Of a stretch of DNA of 64,000 nt, positions 4,183 through 63,474 are shown in pieces; positions within the stretch are counted from its first letter, which is position 1, and each line of letters opens with the position of its first letter. A model generated the notes under the pieces. It did not search any database. It saw only the letters and a list, made by a program, of their open reading frames with translations, and was not told where the DNA came from. Made by a program: the position numbers and the translations under genes. This DNA is from Actinomyces radicidentis (GTDB taxonomy: Bacteria > Actinomycetota > Actinomycetes > Actinomycetales > Actinomycetaceae), in the NCBI RefSeq assembly GCF_001553565.1, contig NZ_CP014228.1, forward strand, positions 2,108,001 through 2,172,000, in the 5' to 3' direction.

Positions 4183-5419
4183 CACGCCCCAGAACGAGCC
4201 CACCGGATCCCGGCCGCTGCGGGTCCTCCTCGCGGGCGGCGGCACCGCCGGCCACGTCAACCCGCTGCTGGCCACCGCGGCCGCCCTGCGCGCCCCGGCC
4301 ACCGGGGGAGACCCCGCCACCGAGATCCTCGTCCTCGGCACCCGGCAGGGCCTCGAGTCCCGCCTCGTCCCCGAGGCCGGCTACGAGCTCTCCTACGTCC
4401 CGCGCGTGCCCCTGCCGCGGCGCACCAGCCTCGACCTCCTGCGCCTGCCGGTGCGCCTGCGCCAGGCGGTCGCCACCGCCGGGCGCGCCATCGAGGCGGT
4501 CGGCGCCGACGTCGTCGTCGGCTTCGGCGGCTTCGTCTCCACCCCCGCCTACCTGGCCGCCCGCCGGGCCGGCGTGCCCGTCGTCATCCACGAGCAGAAC
4601 GCCCGCCCGGGCCTCGCCAACCGCCTCGGGGCACGCTGGGCCGCTGCCGTCGCCCTCACCTTCGCCTCGACGCCCCTCAAGGCCGCCTCGGGCACCACCG
4701 CCGTCACCGGTCTGCCCCTGCGGCCCGCCGTCGGCGAGCTCGTCGCCCAGCGCGGCACCGAGGAGGGCGCCCGCGTCGCCCGCCTCACCGGGGCGACCGC
4801 CCTCGGCCTCGACCCCGAGGCCACCACCCTCCTCATCACCGGAGGCTCGCTCGGCGCCCAGCACCTCAACGAGGTCGTCGCCGCGGCCCTCGGAGACCTC
4901 CCCGAGGGCCTGCAGGTCCTCCACCTCACCGGCAAGGGCAAGGACGAGCCCGTCCGCACCGCCCTCACCGAGGCCGTCGACGCCGGCCGCGCACCCGCGG
5001 ACCTCGCCCGGCGCTACCACGTCCTCGACTACCTCACGGCCATGGAGCAGGCCTACGCCTGCGCCGACGGCGTCATCTGCCGCTCCGGCGCAGGCACGGT
5101 CGCCGAGCTCACCGCCCTCGGCCTGCCCGCCCTCTACGTCCCCCTGCCCATCGGCAACGGCGAGCAGCGCCTCAACGCCGCCGACGTCGTCGCCGCCGGG
5201 GGAGGCCGACTCGTCGCCGACGGCGACCTCGTCCCCGCGGACGTCGCCGGCTTCGCCACCGAGCTCGCCGACGACGAGCGCCGCACGACCACGGCCCGCG
5301 CCGCCGCCTCCACCGGCGTGCGCGACGGCGCGGCCCGTCTCGCGGCGCTCGTGCGCGCCACCGCCCAGCAGGCTCAGGGCGCCTCGGCGTCCGAGCAGAA
5401 GAAGGAGAAGAACGCGTGA
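4175..5419 (+). CDS. murG: MurG, UDP-GlcNAc:lipid I N-acetylglucosaminyltransferase
   Basis: Peripheral membrane GT-B enzyme that converts lipid I to lipid II. The GTG at 4175 is preceded by AGGAGG (4165-4170) at a 4-nt spacing and overlaps the end of ftsW by 8 nt; the open frame upstream of it is not used. The 414-residue product shows GGGTAGHVNPLL near residues 19-30, HEQNARPGLAN near 138-148, GGSLGAQHLNE near 225-235 and the UDP-GlcNAc site CRSGAGTVAELTALG near 305-320. It ends in a short basic KKEKNA tail. The stop overlaps the murC start (GTGA). Confidence 0.96.
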   Translation: MPDTPQNEPTGSRPLRVLLAGGGTAGHVNPLLATAAALRAPATGGDPATEILVLGTRQGLESRLVPEAGYELSYVPRVPLPRRTSLDLLRLPVRLRQAVATAGRAIEAVGADVVVGFGGFVSTPAYLAARRAGVPVVIHEQNARPGLANRLGARWAAAVALTFASTPLKAASGTTAVTGLPLRPAVGELVAQRGTEEGARVARLTGATALGLDPEATTLLITGGSLGAQHLNEVVAAALGDLPEGLQVLHLTGKGKDEPVRTALTEAVDAGRAPADLARRYHVLDYLTAMEQAYACADGVICRSGAGTVAELTALGLPALYVPLPIGNGEQRLNAADVVAAGGGRLVADGDLVPADVAGFATELADDERRTTTARAAASTGVRDGAARLAALVRATAQQAQGASASEQKKEKNA

Positions 5420-17695: not shown

Positions 17696-20600
17696 ATGGC
17701 GGACACGAGCAGTGAGGCGACCCAGGAGACCGGACCCAAGGACGACTTCGTCCACCTCCACGTCCACACCGACTACTCGATGCTCGACGGCGCCGGCAAG
17801 ATCAAGGACTACGTCGCCGAGGCCAAGCGCCTCGGCCAGCCCGCCCTCGCCATCACCGACCACGGCTACATGTTCGGCGCCTACGAGTTCTACGACGCCT
17901 GCAAGTCCGCCGGCATCAAGCCCATCATCGGCGTCGAGGCCTACATGACGCCCGGCACCTCCCGCTTCGACAAGACCCGCGTCTTCTGGGGCGACGAGTC
18001 CCAGCGCTCCGACGACGTCTCCGCCCGCGGCTCCTACACGCACATGACGCTGCTGTCCCGCAACGACGAGGGCCTCCACAACCTCATGCGCCTGGACTCC
18101 TACGCCTCCCTCGAGGGCCAGTTCGGCAAGAGCCCGCGCATGGACCGCGAGCTCCTCGGCCGCTACGGCGGCGGCCTCATCGGCACCTCCGGCTGCCCCT
18201 CCTCCGAGATCCAGACCCGCCTGCGCCTGGGCCAGTGGGACGAGGCCCTGCGCTGCGCCGGCGAGCTCCAGGACATCTTCGGCAAGGAGTTCTTCTACGT
18301 CGAGCTCATGGATCACGGGCTCGAGATCGAGCGTCGCGTCACCAAGGACCTCCTGCGCCTCGCCAAGGAGATCGGCGCCCCGCTCGTCGCCACGAACGAC
18401 TCCCACTACGTGCGCCCCGACGACCGCGTCGTCCAGGACGCCATGCTGTGCATCAACTCCGGAAGCGTCCTCACCGACCCGGACCGCTTCCACTTCGACG
18501 GCGACTCCTACTACCTGCGCCCCGGCCGCGAGATGCGCGAGCTCTTCAAGGAGATGCCCGAGGCCTGCGACAACACCCTCCTCGTCGCCGAGCAGTGCGA
18601 CGTCCACTACCAGAGCGTCGACGAGGGCGCCTCCTTCATGCCCGCCTTCCCCGTCCCCGAGGGCGAGACCATGGAGTCCTGGTTCATCAAGGAGTGCTGG
18701 AAGGGGATGGACAAGCGCTTCAACGGCAACATCCCCGACGACTGCCGCGCGCAGGCCGAGTACGAGATCGGCGTCATCGTCCAGATGGGCTTCCCCGGCT
18801 ACTTCCTCGTCGTCGCGGACTACATCAACTGGGCCAAGGACCACGGCATCCGCGTCGGACCGGGCCGAGGCTCGGGCGCAGGCTCCATCGTCGCCTACGC
18901 CATGGGCATCACGGAGCTCAACCCCCTCAACCACGGCCTCATCTTCGAGCGCTTCCTCAACCCCGAGCGCATCTCGATGCCCGACATCGACGTCGACTTC
19001 GACGAGCGCCGGCGCGAGGAGGTCATCGAGTACGTCAAGGACAAGTACGGCGGGGACAAGATCTCCCAGGTCGTCACCTACGGCGTCATCAAGGCCAAGC
19101 AGTCCCTCAAGGACTCCAGCCGCGTCATGGGCTACCCCTACGCCGTCGGCGACCGGCTCACCAAGGCGATGCCGCCCTCCATCCAGGGCAAGGACATCTC
19201 CATCAACGGCATCTTCAACCCGCAGGACAAGCGCTACGGAGAGGCCGAGGAGTTCCGCAAGCTCCACGCCGAGGACCCCGACGCGCAGAAGATCGTCGAC
19301 CTCGCCCGCGGCCTGGAGGGCATGACCCGCCAGTGGGGCGTCCACGCCTGCGCCGTCATCATGTCCTCCGCGACGCTCACCGACGTCATCCCCATGATGC
19401 AGCGCCTCCAGGACGGTGCCTACATCACGCAGTTCGACTACCCGACCTGCGAGCACCTCGGCCTGCTCAAGATGGACTTCCTGGGCCTGCGCAACCTCAC
19501 GGTCATCTCCGACGCCCTGGAGAACATCGTCGCCAACGGCAAGGACGCGGTCGACATCGACCACATCGAGCTCGACGACCGCGAGACCTACCAGATGCTC
19601 TCCCGCGGCGAGACCCTCGGCGTCTTCCAGCTCGACGGCGGCGGCATGCGCACCCTCCTGCGTCTCATGAAGCCCGACAACTTCGAGGACATCTCCGCCG
19701 TCGGCGCCCTCTACCGCCCCGGCCCCATGGGCGCGGACTCCCACACGAACTACGCGCTGCGCAAGAACGGGCTCCAGGAGATCGTCCCGATCCACCCCGA
19801 GCTCAAGGACGCCCTCGAGCCCATCCTGTCGACGACCTACGGCCTCATCGTCTACCAGGAGCAGGTCATGAAGATCGCCCAGGAGCTCGCGGGCTTCTCC
19901 CTGGGCAAGGCCGACAAGCTCCGCAAGGCCATGGGCAAGAAGAAGCCCGAGATCCTGGCCAAGGAGTTCGTCGGCTTCCGGCAGGGCATGCTGGACAACG
20001 GCTACTCCGAGGAGTCCATCCAGACCCTGTGGGACGTCGTGGTCCCGTTCTCCGCCTACGCCTTCAACAAGGCGCACTCCGCGGCCTACGGCGTCGTCAC
20101 CTACTGGACCGCCTTCCTCAAGTGCCACTACCCGACCGAGTACATGGCCGCGATCCTCACGTCCCAGAAGGACAACAAGGACAAGCTCGCCGTCTACCTC
20201 GGCGAGTGCCGCCACATGGGCATCCAGGTCCTCCCGCCGGACGTCAACGACTCCCGCGCCCAGTTCTCCGCCGTCGGGGACGACATCCGCTTCGGCCTGG
20301 CCGCGATCCGCAACGTCGGCACGAACGTCGTCGACGGGATCATCGCCGCCCGCGAGGAGAAGGGCGCCTTCGAGAGCTTCGAGGACTTCCTCGACAAGGT
20401 GCCCGCGGTCGTCTGCAACAAGCGCACCATCGACTCCCTCATCAAGGCCGGCGCCTTCGACTCCCTCGGTCAGACCCGTCGCAGCCTCCAGGCCTGCCAC
20501 GAGGAGTTCGTCGACGAGGTCATCGGCGTCAAGCGCAACGAGGCCGCCGGCCAGTTCGACCTGTTCGCCTCGATCATGGGCGGCGACGACGCCGGCGCCG

Positions 20601-21295
20601 ACGACGTCTTCGGCAACGGCCCGGTCTTCTCCACCGAGGTCCCGAACCTGCCCGAGTGGGACAAGAAGGACAAGCTCGCCTACGAGCGCGACATGCTCGG
20701 CCTCTACGTCTCCGACCACCCGCTCCTGGGCCTCGAGGGCGTCCTGGGCAAGCTCGCCGACGTCGAGATCGCGGACCTCATCGAGAACGAGGAGCGGCCC
20801 GACGGCGCCATGGTGACCGTCGCCGGCCTCATCACGTCGCTGCAGCGCAAGACGACGAAGCAGGGCAACCTCTGGGCCATCGCCCAGATCGAGGACCTCG
20901 GCGGCTCCGTGGAGGCGCTGTTCTTCCCGAGCACGTACCAGACGGTCTCGACGATGCTGGCGCCGGACACCGTGGTGACCGTGCGCGGGCGCCTCAACCG
21001 CCGCGACGGCCAGGTGGCGCTCTACGCGCAGGAGATGACCATCCCGGACGTCTCCTCCGCGACGCACGAGGCCGTCACCATCACCCTGCCGACGAACCGC
21101 TGCACCGGGCCGCTCGTGGAGCGTCTGCGCGACGTCCTCACGAAGCACCCGGGGATGTCGACGGTGCGCCTCAACCTCACGAGCCCCGGTCGTGAGGTGC
21201 GCACGCAGCTCGACAACTCGCTGCGTGTCGAGGCCTCGCAGGCCTTCTACTCCGACATCAAGGCGCTGCTCGGACCGGGCTGCCTCAAGCACTGA
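17696..21295 (+). CDS. dnaE: DnaE1, DNA polymerase III alpha subunit
   Basis: Replicative DNA polymerase catalytic subunit. The 1199-residue protein begins after about 15 residues with the PHP domain (HLHVHTDYSMLDGAG), then the C-family polymerase core with GPGRGSGAGSIVAYA near 387-401, the catalytic PDIDVDF near 427-433, HACAVIM near 550, and the fingers with AYAFNKAHSAAY near 786-797. A helix-hairpin-helix region follows near 880-935, then an OB fold with VTVAGLITS near 1041-1049. The start is ATG 17696, supported by the PHP position and the -10 box. It is separated from rluD by the repeat-bounded insert, although the two are often near neighbours in actinobacteria. Confidence 0.98.
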   Translation: MADTSSEATQETGPKDDFVHLHVHTDYSMLDGAGKIKDYVAEAKRLGQPALAITDHGYMFGAYEFYDACKSAGIKPIIGVEAYMTPGTSRFDKTRVFWGDESQRSDDVSARGSYTHMTLLSRNDEGLHNLMRLDSYASLEGQFGKSPRMDRELLGRYGGGLIGTSGCPSSEIQTRLRLGQWDEALRCAGELQDIFGKEFFYVELMDHGLEIERRVTKDLLRLAKEIGAPLVATNDSHYVRPDDRVVQDAMLCINSGSVLTDPDRFHFDGDSYYLRPGREMRELFKEMPEACDNTLLVAEQCDVHYQSVDEGASFMPAFPVPEGETMESWFIKECWKGMDKRFNGNIPDDCRAQAEYEIGVIVQMGFPGYFLVVADYINWAKDHGIRVGPGRGSGAGSIVAYAMGITELNPLNHGLIFERFLNPERISMPDIDVDFDERRREEVIEYVKDKYGGDKISQVVTYGVIKAKQSLKDSSRVMGYPYAVGDRLTKAMPPSIQGKDISINGIFNPQDKRYGEAEEFRKLHAEDPDAQKIVDLARGLEGMTRQWGVHACAVIMSSATLTDVIPMMQRLQDGAYITQFDYPTCEHLGLLKMDFLGLRNLTVISDALENIVANGKDAVDIDHIELDDRETYQMLSRGETLGVFQLDGGGMRTLLRLMKPDNFEDISAVGALYRPGPMGADSHTNYALRKNGLQEIVPIHPELKDALEPILSTTYGLIVYQEQVMKIAQELAGFSLGKADKLRKAMGKKKPEILAKEFVGFRQGMLDNGYSEESIQTLWDVVVPFSAYAFNKAHSAAYGVVTYWTAFLKCHYPTEYMAAILTSQKDNKDKLAVYLGECRHMGIQVLPPDVNDSRAQFSAVGDDIRFGLAAIRNVGTNVVDGIIAAREEKGAFESFEDFLDKVPAVVCNKRTIDSLIKAGAFDSLGQTRRSLQACHEEFVDEVIGVKRNEAAGQFDLFASIMGGDDAGADDVFGNGPVFSTEVPNLPEWDKKDKLAYERDMLGLYVSDHPLLGLEGVLGKLADVEIADLIENEERPDGAMVTVAGLITSLQRKTTKQGNLWAIAQIEDLGGSVEALFFPSTYQTVSTMLAPDTVVTVRGRLNRRDGQVALYAQEMTIPDVSSATHEAVTITLPTNRCTGPLVERLRDVLTKHPGMSTVRLNLTSPGREVRTQLDNSLRVEASQAFYSDIKALLGPGCLKH

Positions 21296-21340: not shown

Positions 21341-21417
21341 GCGCCGAACTCGTCCCTTCCGTCCCGAGGCCCACAGCAAGGATGGTGGTCTCGGAGCGGA
21401 ACCCACGAGTTGAGCGC
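21341..21417. repeat. 77-bp palindromic (REP-like) element, copy 1
   Basis: Imperfect palindrome whose arms GCGCCGAACTCGTCCC... and ...GAACCCACGAGTTGAGCGC pair over about 30 bp around a conserved centre, CCACAGCAAGGATGGTGG. It lies 46 bp after dnaE and 110 bp before the interrupted nuclease gene. It matches the element at 23973-24049 in length and centre, while arm bases differ in compensating pairs. Confidence 0.75.
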
Positions 21418-21770
21418 GATGACCGGGTGGAGCGCCGGGGCTCCCCAAGTCCAGCTCGTGAGCACCGGGTCCCCAGAACCGCATCGCCGGACGTCGCGTG
21501 TGCGACCCGCTCACCAGGATGTCCGGCATGAGCCTTGATGCGCCGCCATCCCTGCCCTTGCCGCGTCTCCGCTTCGCCTCAGAGGCACCGGGTGCCCGGC
21601 CCGGAGACCTCGACGGTGCACGGGTGGTCATGCGCGGATGCGTCCTTGTGCCCCGCCCCGACCGGGCGCTGTGGGAGCAGCAGCGCGAGATGACCTTGGC
21701 CCGCGCCCTCGCAGCCCTGCGATCATGCCCCTCCGCCCGGGCCCTCACGCACGAGAGCGCTGCGCTGCTC

Positions 21771-23161
21771 GGTCAAGTCCCTTGTTGTGGTGTTCTTTCA
21801 GGCGGTCAGGGGCAGGGGTTGGGTGTCGTTGGTGAGGGTGTGGGTGAGTCGTTGCATGGAGGTCTGGGACAGGTAGCGGCGTTCGCCGTACTGCCACTCC
21901 TCGTGCTGCTCGAGCAGGACGGCGCCGATGAGGCGGGTCACGGAGTCTGGGTTGGGGAAGACCTGGACGACGTCGGCGCGGCGCTTGATCTCGGCGTTGA
22001 CGCGTTCGATGGGGTTGTTGGACCAGATCTTCTTCCAGTGCTCGGTGGGGAAGGCGGCGAACGCGGTCAGGTCAGCCTCGGCGGCCTCGAGCATGTCGGC
22101 GATGTCCGGGAAGGTGCCTCTCAGGGAGTCGGTGACCTGGTGGTAGGTGGCGCGCACGGCCTGGGGGCTGGTCTGGGCGAACACCGTGGAGATGAGGGCG
22201 TTGACGGGCTTGGAGCGTGCTGATCCCAGGCGGGAGGTGATGTTGCGGGCGAAGTGCACGCGGCAGCGCTGCCAGGCCGCGCCGGGCAGGATCGCCTTGA
22301 CGGCGGCCTTCAGGCCGGCGTGGGAGTCGGACACGACCAGGGCGACACCCTCGGGCCGGGAGGGCCCGCACACGGCCAGGCCCCGCTCGCGCAGGGAGCG
22401 CAGGAAGCTGGTCCAGAAGTCGGTGGACTCGCTGTCGCCCACGGCCATGCCCAGGATCTCGCGGCGCCCGGCGGCGGAGACCCCTACCGCGACGACGGTG
22501 GCCTGGGAGACGACGCGGTGTCCGACGCGCACGTCGAGGTAGGTGGCGTCCAGGTAGAGGTAGGGGAACCAGGTGTGGTCCAGAGGCCGGTTCAGGAAGG
22601 CACCGACCGTCTGGTCGATGTCGGCGCAGATCCGTGAGACCTGGGACTTGGAGATGCCGGACTCGCAGCCCAGGGCCTTGACCAGGTCATCGACCTTGCG
22701 GGTGGAGACCCCCTCGACCCAGGCGGTGGCGATCACCGCGTACAGGGCCTTGTCGACCCTCCTGCGCGGGGACAGCAGGGACGGGAAGAAGGAACCCCGG
22801 CGCAGCTTGGGGATGGCCAGGTCGACCTCCCCGGCAGTGGTCGCCACCGTCTTGGAGCGCGTCCCATTGCGGCGCGTGATGCGATCCGGGGTGCGCTCGT
22901 AGCGGGAGGCGCCGATCACCGCTTCGGCTTCGGCGTCGATGAGGTCCTGCAGTCCGGCGGCCAGCAGACGGCGGAACATCTCGTCGCGTGAGGCCTCAGG
23001 GTCGGCCAGGAGTTCCCCGATCAAGGCGGACAAGGCAGACTGATGGTGGGTCATCGCGGGTCCCTTCAGATGGTTCTTGGCGGAATCACACCCGCGATGA
23101 CCCCCAGCCACCTCGACCAGCGGCCCCCGCGGGAATTGCCACCACGCTAAGGGACACACCC
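21771..23161 (-). mobile_element. IS256-family insertion sequence, copy 1
   Basis: A 1391-bp element bounded by GGTCAAGTCCC (left) and GGGACACACCC (right), imperfect inverted repeats sharing GTCCCTT and GTGGTG. It is flanked by the 8-bp target duplication CGCTGCTC at 21763-21770 and 23162-23169. It contains one transposase gene on the minus strand. The second copy at 33766-35156 has the same length and, as far as I compared, the same sequence. Confidence 0.95.
21798..23054 (-). CDS. IS256-family (mutator-type) DDE transposase, copy 1
   Basis: Cuts and joins the ends of its IS. The 418-residue protein starts MTHHQSALSALI; an ORF extension further upstream is outside the element and was excluded. 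Mutator signatures are visible: LYLDATYLDVR near residues 168-178 with the first catalytic Asp, the block VVSDSHAGLKAA near 237-248 with the second Asp, CRVHFARN near 259-266, and NPIERVNAEIKRR near 344-356 with the catalytic Glu. The family is usually 390-430 residues, so it appears complete and possibly active. Confidence 0.95.
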   Translation of the reverse strand: MTHHQSALSALIGELLADPEASRDEMFRRLLAAGLQDLIDAEAEAVIGASRYERTPDRITRRNGTRSKTVATTAGEVDLAIPKLRRGSFFPSLLSPRRRVDKALYAVIATAWVEGVSTRKVDDLVKALGCESGISKSQVSRICADIDQTVGAFLNRPLDHTWFPYLYLDATYLDVRVGHRVVSQATVVAVGVSAAGRREILGMAVGDSESTDFWTSFLRSLRERGLAVCGPSRPEGVALVVSDSHAGLKAAVKAILPGAAWQRCRVHFARNITSRLGSARSKPVNALISTVFAQTSPQAVRATYHQVTDSLRGTFPDIADMLEAAEADLTAFAAFPTEHWKKIWSNNPIERVNAEIKRRADVVQVFPNPDSVTRLIGAVLLEQHEEWQYGERRYLSQTSMQRLTHTLTNDTQPLPLTA

Positions 23162-23972
23162 CGCTGCTCCACGGTCTTCCGCTGCTCAACCCCGAGCCCG
23201 ACGTGCGCGTGGCAGTGCCGAGCCTGCCGAGAACAGGACGGCGCAGTCTGGGACGGGCTCTGTACTCGGACTCCCGGGGAAGCACGTGGGGCCGGGAGGT
23301 CTCGCTCGTCCGGAGCAGCCGGTCGCTGGAGGACGACGACGTCACCCGGGTCGCAGGCCTCCCGGTGACGACCCTCCGACGGACGGTCGTCGACTGCGCT
23401 ATGGACCTTCCATCGCGGGAGGCGATCTGCGTCGTCGACGCCGGGCTCCGTCGGTTGTGTGAGCCGGACCGGTGGACTGGGCGTTGTGCGATCGACCCGG
23501 ACGATGAACGAGCGCGGCTTCTGAACCTCCTCGAGTCGCTGCCTGCGCGCCGCGGCGTTCGACGGGCGCGTGCCGTGCTGGGCTTCGCCAGCCCGTGGGC
23601 CGAGTCTCCGGGGGAGAGCGTCCTGCGATGGCGGCTCGCGGTGGATGGGCTTCCCGATCCCGTTCTCCAGCAGGTGGTCGAGGACCGTGCGCACCGGTGG
23701 TTCATCGATCTCGCCTGGCCGGCCTCGGGGCTCGCCGTCGAGTTCGACGGGTACGCCAAGTACGGGACCGCCGAGGACCTGCGAGCCGAGAAGCGGCGCG
23801 AGCTGCGGCTGCAGGCGCTGGGATGGACGGTGCTCCGGTTCGACTGGGCCGGGATCGGGCGCTCCGATGAGCTGACGGCGCGGGTTCGTGCGCACCTGGC
23901 GCCGGGTGAGGCTCCTGCTCCGGTGCGCACCTATCTGCGCGCGTAGGCGATCCAGCACGGCGCGGTGCGAAG

Positions 23973-24049
23973 ACGCCGAACTCGTACTTTTCGCCCCGAG
24001 ACCCACAGCGAGGACGGTGGTCTCGCAGCGAAAGGTACGAGTTCGGCGT
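23973..24049. repeat. 77-bp palindromic (REP-like) element, copy 2
   Basis: Near-perfect palindrome: ACGCCGAACTCGTACTTTTC... against ...GAAAGGTACGAGTTCGGCGT, around the centre CCACAGCGAGGACGGTGG. It starts 26 bp after the interrupted nuclease gene. Same length and centre orientation as 21341-21417, with paired base changes in the arms that preserve the hairpin. It might also act as a terminator between two convergent genes. Confidence 0.8.
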
Positions 24050-24074: not shown

Positions 24075-24329
24075 TCAGTCGCGGAGGGCGACGACGGCGC
24101 CGTCGGCACCGGTGGGGAGGTCGACCTCGACGACGTCGCCGTCGGACAGGTGGTGCCCGCGCCGGGTCTCGACCTCGCCGTTGACGAGGACGTCGCCGGA
24201 CTGGACCGCGACCCGCGCCTCCGAGCCGTCCTCGACGAGGTTCGCGAGCTTGAGGAACTGGCCGAGCTTGATCTCGCCGCGCACGGGCACGGACGGGTAC
24301 GCGGGGTCAGGGGCCTGGGGAGTCGTCAT
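24075..24329 (-). CDS. Small S4-domain RNA-binding protein
   Basis: The 84-residue protein is a single S4 RNA-binding fold of the YbcJ/RqcP-like small-protein type: IKLGQFLKLANLVEDGSEARVAV near 20-42, then LVNGEVETRRGHHLSDGD near 48-65. Such proteins bind structured RNA or ribosomal subunits; the exact partner is unknown. The ATG at 24329 has no SD but a -10-like GAGACT (24341-24336) 6 nt upstream, so it is probably leaderless. Confidence 0.8.
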   Translation of the reverse strand: MTTPQAPDPAYPSVPVRGEIKLGQFLKLANLVEDGSEARVAVQSGDVLVNGEVETRRGHHLSDGDVVEVDLPTGADGAVVALRD

Positions 24330-29065: not shown

Positions 29066-29341
29066 CGTTCTCCTTGTTCGCGATCTTCCGCTCGCGGTCG
29101 CGGGCGGCGGATCTTCCTCCGGAGGCACCGGGCGCGATGACCGGTTGCCAGCCGACGAGCCGGAGGGCTTGGCGTCGGACTTCTTGATCCGCCGCAGAGT
29201 CTGCCACAGGCCCGTGCCGGGCAGCGGGGCTCGTCATCAAGGTGCAACCCGGAGCGGCCCTGCCTGAAACACGGCTGGCGTGTCATGACGGAGCCCGATG
29301 AGGCGCCCCTCACGTTCCCGACCCCTGGAAGGACCCCCGTC

Positions 29342-63254: not shown

Positions 63255-63380
63255 TCGTCCGCGCTCAACGGCGTGCGGCCATGACCGAACCCCGCCCTCG
63301 CCGCGCCCTGTCTCGCTCCGCGGGAGCGTCGCGCCGTGACTTGCGACGCACCCGCCGTCGGCGGTTATGCTCCGCCCATC

Positions 63381-63466
63381 ACCATCCCGAGCGGCCGAGA
63401 GACCTGGCTCCCCGACGCCGCAGCAACCACGCCGTCCGGCGGGGTGCTCCAGCCAGGAACGATGGA
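63381..63466 (+). ncRNA. SAM riboswitch (S-box/SAM-I type)
   Basis: Matches the S-box layout: closing P1 stem ACCATC (63381-63386) with GATGG (63461-63465), GAGCGGC followed by GAGAGAC near 63389-63402, P2 GCGGC with GCCGC (63391-63395 and 63417-63421), the invariant GCAACC (63423-63428) and GGTGCT (63442-63447). It would turn off the following MetE-like gene when S-adenosylmethionine is high. A hairpin CCCCTGC (63541-63547) with GCAGGGG (63565-63571) downstream could belong to the expression platform. Confidence 0.85.
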
Positions 63467-63474
63467 AGGCGACC

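Follow-up and report, generated by a model that had tools for sequence, protein, structure and literature searches.

The window analysed here, a 64,000-nucleotide stretch of the Actinomyces radicidentis chromosome, carries a nuclease gene of AbiEi-like/Vsr type between two 77-bp palindromes, at a site defined by dnaE on one side and a small S4-domain gene on the other. Nuclease genes of this family are associated with matched palindrome pairs: within the genus, 47 of 109 relatives had the same palindrome on both sides, compared with 1 of 144 control genes. The window locus is a broken copy of such a palindrome-nuclease-palindrome unit, and the data point to a small mobile unit of an undescribed kind, in which a nuclease moves and changes jointly with the DNA it targets.

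Nuclease genes between matched palindromes

A sequence-only reading of the window had compared the locus with genes for REP-associated tyrosine transposases (RAYTs), which are flanked by repetitive extragenic palindromic (REP) sequences, and had suggested following the 77-bp element through related genomes with one covariance model. Because the palindrome is specific to the nuclease lineage, such a search cannot show the association, and 15 of the 17 copies of the element lie away from the window locus. Widened from the 77-bp element to any palindrome, the same check was strongly positive. An alignment of the dnaE-site nucleases found matches in 47 of 49 Actinomyces genomes; 110 loci were taken from the higher-scoring matches listed (30 + 80) and 109 of them analysed, L243 being dropped for want of a match. 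Bracketing was scored when palindromes lay within 500 bp on both sides. The thresholds of the palindrome finder were set by hand; when it was run on 163 kb of shuffled sequence, no palindrome of score 14 came up. Genes of 200-450 amino acids in 400 kb from 20 genomes served as the control.

Palindromes (median length 69 nt) stood on both sides of 48 nuclease loci, and in 47 of these the two were the same palindrome. Median alignment scores were 57 for palindromes within a locus and 8 between loci, and the 47 pairs were arranged as direct (26), inverted (15) or tied (6) copies. With looser thresholds the number of bracketed nucleases rose to 52 and 56, while the control count stayed at one. The PF18741 model supplied a second control: of the 30 loci it identified, 29 were in frames of more than 1100 codons, and the set yielded 6 palindromes in 97 kb. 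The window locus itself (L139) was scored as not bracketed because an insertion sequence (IS) pushes its upstream palindrome away. Since loci of related species are not independent, the 28 palindrome families into which the 47 pairs fall are the better count.

The family and its bracketing extend beyond the genus. When 296 genomes were sampled from the class, 160 of them, in 79 of 115 genera, had relatives at E ≤ 1e-20 (window genome included). We analysed the 29 best matches from other genera, one per genome: 7 were bracketed at the genus thresholds and 12 at looser ones with a 600-bp span, against none of 146 control genes at every setting (20 stretches from 20 of those genomes). The clearest pairs were those of L273 (score 71), L282 (42), L293 (38) and L292 (36); the pairs of L281 (22) and L285 (20) were weak, and those of L289 and L291 are long repeated tracts.

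Within the genus, palindrome identity follows nuclease identity. All 23 pairs of nucleases that were at least 80% identical shared a palindrome, as did 6 of the 28 pairs at 60-80% identity and only 1 of the 1030 pairs below 60%. A single palindrome family common to all nucleases was rejected, several matches to the window model in other genomes having different arms (e.g. L024 and L028). Around the dnaE-site nucleases of one clade, each genome carries its own changes in both arms of both palindrome copies (G014 has GCACCC, G038 GTGCCC), and palindrome identity within these loci is 0.98, 1.00 and 0.88, compared with 0.80-0.89 between species. We formed nine groups by nuclease similarity, with the same genomic position checked for the dnaE group alone, and within-locus identity was the higher in 5 of the nine.

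Two side observations concern palindromes beyond the immediate nuclease locus. L258 (G040:C1:300001-320000) has four similar palindromes in 15 kb around ordinary-looking genes, and at L179 (G012; 2879-2993 and 4426-4542) the palindrome downstream of the nuclease has a further matched partner beyond the neighbouring gene.

The interrupted unit in the window

The left neighbour at the window site is dnaE, encoding the alpha subunit of DNA polymerase III (17696-21295, + strand), and the right neighbour is the S4-domain gene (24075-24329, - strand). Two palindromes of equal length had been described as flanking the nuclease gene, and both are real: an upstream, partly degraded copy at 21341-21417 and a well-preserved downstream copy at 23973-24049, scoring 96.7 and 104.9 bits on the + strand with a covariance model, R1, built from these two. 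Aligned over 75 nt, they are 81% identical. The arms of the downstream copy are 90% complementary over 31 nt, which makes it an almost perfect palindrome, and the upstream copy is more worn; folding of the + strand DNA gave z-scores of -9.46 and -3.45, respectively (200 shuffles each). Chance palindromes were ruled out by dinucleotide shuffles, single-base shuffles and a slid-partner control. Their common centre, CCACAGCnAGGAnGGTGG, is exact in both copies and absent from the rest of the 3.05-Mb genome, which is a single contig. Rfam gave no match to the element at gathering thresholds.

Counted at E below 0.01, the R1 family has 17 copies in the window genome, all of 77 bp. Of the 15 copies beyond the window pair, 14 lie outside the frames kept by a simple open reading frame (ORF) caller, and one overlaps a doubtful frame of 118 codons; no nuclease was seen among the neighbours of these 15. 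The paired, hairpin-keeping changes that had been noted between the two window copies hold only in part, since just some of their differences are compensatory; over the 17 copies, however, covariation of the arms is clear. In that alignment 89.5% of cells are paired, 14 of 29 pairs are changed on both sides, and 31 cells show two-sided change compared with 11.8 (sd 2.8) in shuffles, which is also far above the slid controls. A spread of palindromes between unrelated genes, with no enrichment near the nuclease family, had been named as the outcome that would speak against the proposal. Taken alone, the R1 family would come close to it, with 15 of 17 copies elsewhere; the picture changed once the dnaE-S4 site was compared across the genus. 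A weaker and longer match of 118 bp, with similar arms and a longer middle, was also seen (L005 2434-2551; G000 1070544-1070661); it adjoins another nuclease-like gene of the window genome, with a weak PF18741 match.

The nuclease gene had been reconstructed as one AbiEi/DUF559-like gene at 21528-23946. Its assignment to the AbiEi-like/Vsr-type nucleases stands, but it is not continuous: an IS256-family element of 1391 bp (21771-23161, - strand; transposase ORF ~21798-23060; PF00872, E 1.9e-124) splits the coding region. The 8-bp target duplication CGCTGCTC borders the element at 21763-21770 and 23162-23169. To its left lies the N-terminal piece (21528-21770, + strand), which alone has no Pfam or NCBIfam match and is 43-50% identical to the same-site nucleases of genomes G014, G038 and G045. 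To its right, the C-terminal piece (23170-23946, + strand) is 45-48% identical to the same three proteins and contains the Vsr/DUF559-like catalytic domain. This remnant matches PF18741 and DUF559, both under the Pfam cut-offs, and the AbiEi models of PADLOC with E-values down to 6.4e-07. The catalytic fold is Vsr-like, and the conserved acidic residues are present in the alignments. A second copy of the IS seems likely in this genome, where another frame (L048 1-690; G000:9000-9689) starts with the N-terminal sequence of the window transposase frame.

The window genome encodes one more member of the nuclease family, L202 (G000:748112-749116). Its reading frame is open, and the matched palindromes on its two sides are of another type. 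As this palindrome has no further copies in the 49 genomes, bracketing does not require a genome rich in repeats.

An optional gene and its scattered palindromes

We compared the dnaE-S4 site among the 49 genomes, of which we take G014 to be A. glycerinitolerans, G038 A. ruminicola, G012 A. ruminis and G047 A. succiniciruminis. The S4 gene was present in all 49, and for 41 of them we could resolve the site. A nuclease gene occupies it in 5 genomes (one being the IS-split copy), remnants remain in 2 (G005 and G025), and 34 have none; 13 of these 34 carry 0.8-2.4 kb of other DNA. The gene is thus an optional one at a conserved site, present or absent among relatives, as a homing endonuclease gene would be. 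In G014, G038 and G045 the nuclease has the opposite orientation to that in the window and lies within two near-identical palindromes quite different in sequence from those of the window, and in G022 it is bracketed by a third palindrome type. The three types are unrelated, with best cross scores of 6.5-11, where the two window copies score 47 against each other. In L304 (G030:C1:2078500-2085500), also at the dnaE-S4 site, a stretch that includes the palindrome and part of the S4 gene is duplicated 2.45 kb apart, with ~1.7 kb of unidentified DNA in between.

Empty sites had been suggested as a check. G047 is sister to G014 (99/98) within a seven-genome clade (100/100) whose filled members are G014, G038 and G045; it has no nuclease and a single palindrome at the exact junction. 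The left flank of this palindrome matches that of the left G014 copy at 31 of 35 positions and its right flank that of the right G014 copy at 53 of 57 (6 gap positions), compared with 36/57 and 28/45 in the cross comparisons. Judged by these flanks, the structure is what would be expected from recombination between two palindrome copies, and it would equally be a homing target. G015, sister to the filled G022 (100/100) and 97.4% identical to it over 3.6 kb on the dnaE side, has neither nuclease nor palindrome. The junctions of the sister sites G022/G015 and window/G036 differ too much for a target-site duplication to be called at the unit ends.

Solo copies of two palindrome families, R1 and that of the dnaE-site clade, are scattered through related genomes. 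By pattern, with up to 3 mismatches, we counted the clade palindrome in all 49 genomes. Where the gene is intact there were 19 copies (G014), 14 (G045) and 10 (G038); where no intact close relative of the nuclease was found there were still 8 (G047), 6 (G012), 6 (G030) and 2 (G005). The other 42 genomes had none, and the reversed pattern also gave zero. A fresh solo insertion in the comparison of G047 with G014 was rejected, because the copy is common to the clade and what differs is a rearrangement next to it. Beside this shared palindrome, 6-7 kb present in G014, G030 and G012 is absent in G047, G038 and G045 (L349-L353, L358, L360, L361).

These results bear on a regulatory or insulating role of the palindromes, the main rival to mobility. 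The upstream copy would be an operator bound by the AbiEi-like domain and the downstream one would end transcription, so that the pair would be no signal of mobility and the gene an ordinary accessory gene. AbiEi proteins are autoregulatory. However, nothing requires an operator to be nearly identical to a terminator over its whole length, as the palindromes of 47 of the 48 two-sided loci are, nor would the two have to be scattered through the genomes of a lineage or leave one copy at the exact junction of a missing gene. We consider this explanation unlikely, though the least so of the rivals.

In line with the self-protection idea of the sequence-only reading, the unit might be an addiction or anti-phage module, its palindromes serving as decoys for the nuclease or as protection of the host. 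This could account for the many palindromes tolerated by genomes with an intact gene, and the AbiEi models of PADLOC that match, weakly, belong to a defence library. Yet no toxin or methylase gene directly adjoins the window gene, its neighbours being dnaE and the S4 gene, and most genomes have no nuclease gene at the dnaE site. The chances of such a module are slim.

Sister species differ strongly in their nucleases. G036, sister to the window genome, has no nuclease at the dnaE-S4 site, its dnaE C-terminus being 99% identical to that of the window, and the best match between nucleases of the two genomes is 50% (122/244; 3 of 6 window-genome matches were compared with 4 of 6 from G036). This disparity of 50% and 99% fits horizontal turnover. 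Nucleases from other sites branch among the dnaE-site occupants in the nuclease tree, where the sister of the window nuclease is G036 L149. Repeated arrival at this site is therefore likely; it falls short of proof because several branches are long, even though the dnaE occupants do not form one exclusive clade.

The Y1/RAYT transposase family PF01797 had no match at E ≤ 0.001 in any of the 49 Actinomyces genomes, while the same search was positive in 5 of 14 control genomes. A RAYT acting in trans is thereby disfavoured. The gene might also be passive, with palindromes resembling REPs or miniature inverted-repeat transposable elements (MITEs) spread by an unknown factor and an excess at nucleases arising only from intergenic islands that collect both. 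Nine stretches around other copies of the clade palindrome, from six genomes, indeed held no nuclease, and the 400 kb of control stretches contain 4 matched pairs around genes of ordinary appearance. Against this stand the counts for nucleases (47/109 and 7/29) and controls (1/144 and 0/146), the L202 pair without another copy in 49 genomes, the tracking of nuclease identity by palindrome identity, and the absence of a Y1 transposase from the 49 genomes. A passive gene is already disfavoured and, in our view, quite improbable.

A REP-like arrangement around a nuclease

We think it probable that the system is REP-like, with a homing-type nuclease in the role that a transposase has elsewhere. 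The core idea of the sequence-only reading, a REP/RAYT-like arrangement around a Vsr/DUF559-type nuclease, gains support well beyond the window locus, in the genus and in the class. Its mobilisation claim is backed by the optional presence at one site, the exact single-palindrome site and the poor similarity of nucleases between sister species, whereas the acting mechanism can only be proposed. In such a mechanism the AbiEi-like N-terminal part would recognise its cognate palindrome, as duplex or as extruded hairpin, and the C-terminal domain, which resembles Vsr and I-Bth0305I, would nick or cut it. Repair of the break from a palindrome-nuclease-palindrome copy could carry the unit to another palindrome (homing), and the same repair would keep the two flanking copies alike. 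Occasionally it might leave solo palindromes, which would then behave like REPs, and recombination between the two copies would delete the nuclease gene. We infer recognition, cutting and homing by the nuclease from the arrangement described above.

Several results weigh against this reading. No clear pair was found at 62 of the 109 loci; worn palindromes explain some of these (L149, by eye), perhaps not all, and in the most divergent branch of the nuclease tree (8 rows) no locus has two palindromes. In 4 of the nine groups copies within a locus are no more alike than copies of different species: the L166/L179/L138 and L175-L177 groups are partly reversed, L230/L231 tie and the L187 group is mixed. 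Most gene-less genomes also lack a palindrome at the dnaE site, so that landing on a solo palindrome already in place can only be supposed, and the single palindrome of G047 needs just ordinary recombination between repeats. Since genomes with an intact nuclease have up to 19 copies of its palindrome, the enzyme cannot simply cut that duplex freely. Dispersal is not general either, the L202 palindrome having its own two copies alone across the 49 genomes. Finally, Foldseek gave no match at E ≤ 0.001, and the statement on the fold rests on a second aligner.

The unit resembles REP/RAYT systems (TnpAREP, REPtron) in several respects. A RAYT gene is bracketed by two palindromes, further copies are scattered and the palindrome type tracks the enzyme type (PMC2817692, PMC3733652, PMC8266576); REPs have also been suggested to be kept where the RAYT gene is lost (PMC6006769). 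Correspondingly, two related palindromes bracket the nuclease gene in the window and in the 47 relatives, two of the three Actinomyces palindrome families counted have further dispersed copies (the third, that of L202, has none), and palindromes are present where the enzyme gene is missing. In contrast, the Actinomyces enzyme is a PD-(D/E)XK nuclease of Vsr type and not an HuH Y1 transposase (PF01797). Its palindromes are longer (median 69 nt against the 20-40 bp given for REPs in PMC3733652) and far fewer (2-19 copies, against usually >100 per genome according to PMC2817692), and their orientation is mixed, the REP/RAYT arrangement having inverted palindromes with a GTAG-type head.

The unit also differs from other known systems. 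Compared with free-standing homing endonuclease genes of the EDxHD/Vsr-like type, such as I-Bth0305I, it has an additional AbiEi-like part fused to the nuclease, and the accessible descriptions of those genes mention no palindromic ends. From type IV toxin-antitoxin systems of the AbiE kind it differs in that its AbiEi-like part is fused to a nuclease and that, at the window locus (the one checked), no AbiEii toxin gene lies directly beside it. The C-terminal domain bears a weak resemblance, under the Pfam cut-offs, to the DUF559 and MTES_1575 restriction endonuclease (REase) families (PF04480, PF18741), whose founding MTES_1575 protein is described as a giant helicase fusion (PMC3710099). In the literature searched, which left out most subscription papers, we found no report of nuclease genes bracketed by matched palindromes.

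More tentatively, and with somewhat less confidence than in its REP-like character, the unit may represent an undescribed class of mobile unit: a self-spreading nuclease gene with its own recognition palindrome at both ends, which would home into solo copies, keep its copies alike by conversion and seed REP-like families without a transposase. Enzyme and palindrome would change together so fast that nearly every lineage has its private pair. REP-like palindromes are tied to HuH RAYTs in the literature available to us, and here the same arrangement surrounds an unrelated nuclease, which offers a testable origin for dispersed palindromes in RAYT-free genomes. The nuclease family is widespread in actinobacteria under database labels such as hypothetical, DUF559 or AbiEi-like, and the bracketing offers a function for it. 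The 28 enzyme-palindrome combinations are a ready set for studying the co-evolution of DNA recognition, and should these enzymes turn out to be specific for long palindromes, they would also provide new sequence-specific DNA tools.

Elsewhere in the window we observed a pair of SAM riboswitches, one from the SAM-IV family (RF00634) and one from the SAM family (RF00162), at 29077-29189 (- strand) and 63379-63468 (+ strand).
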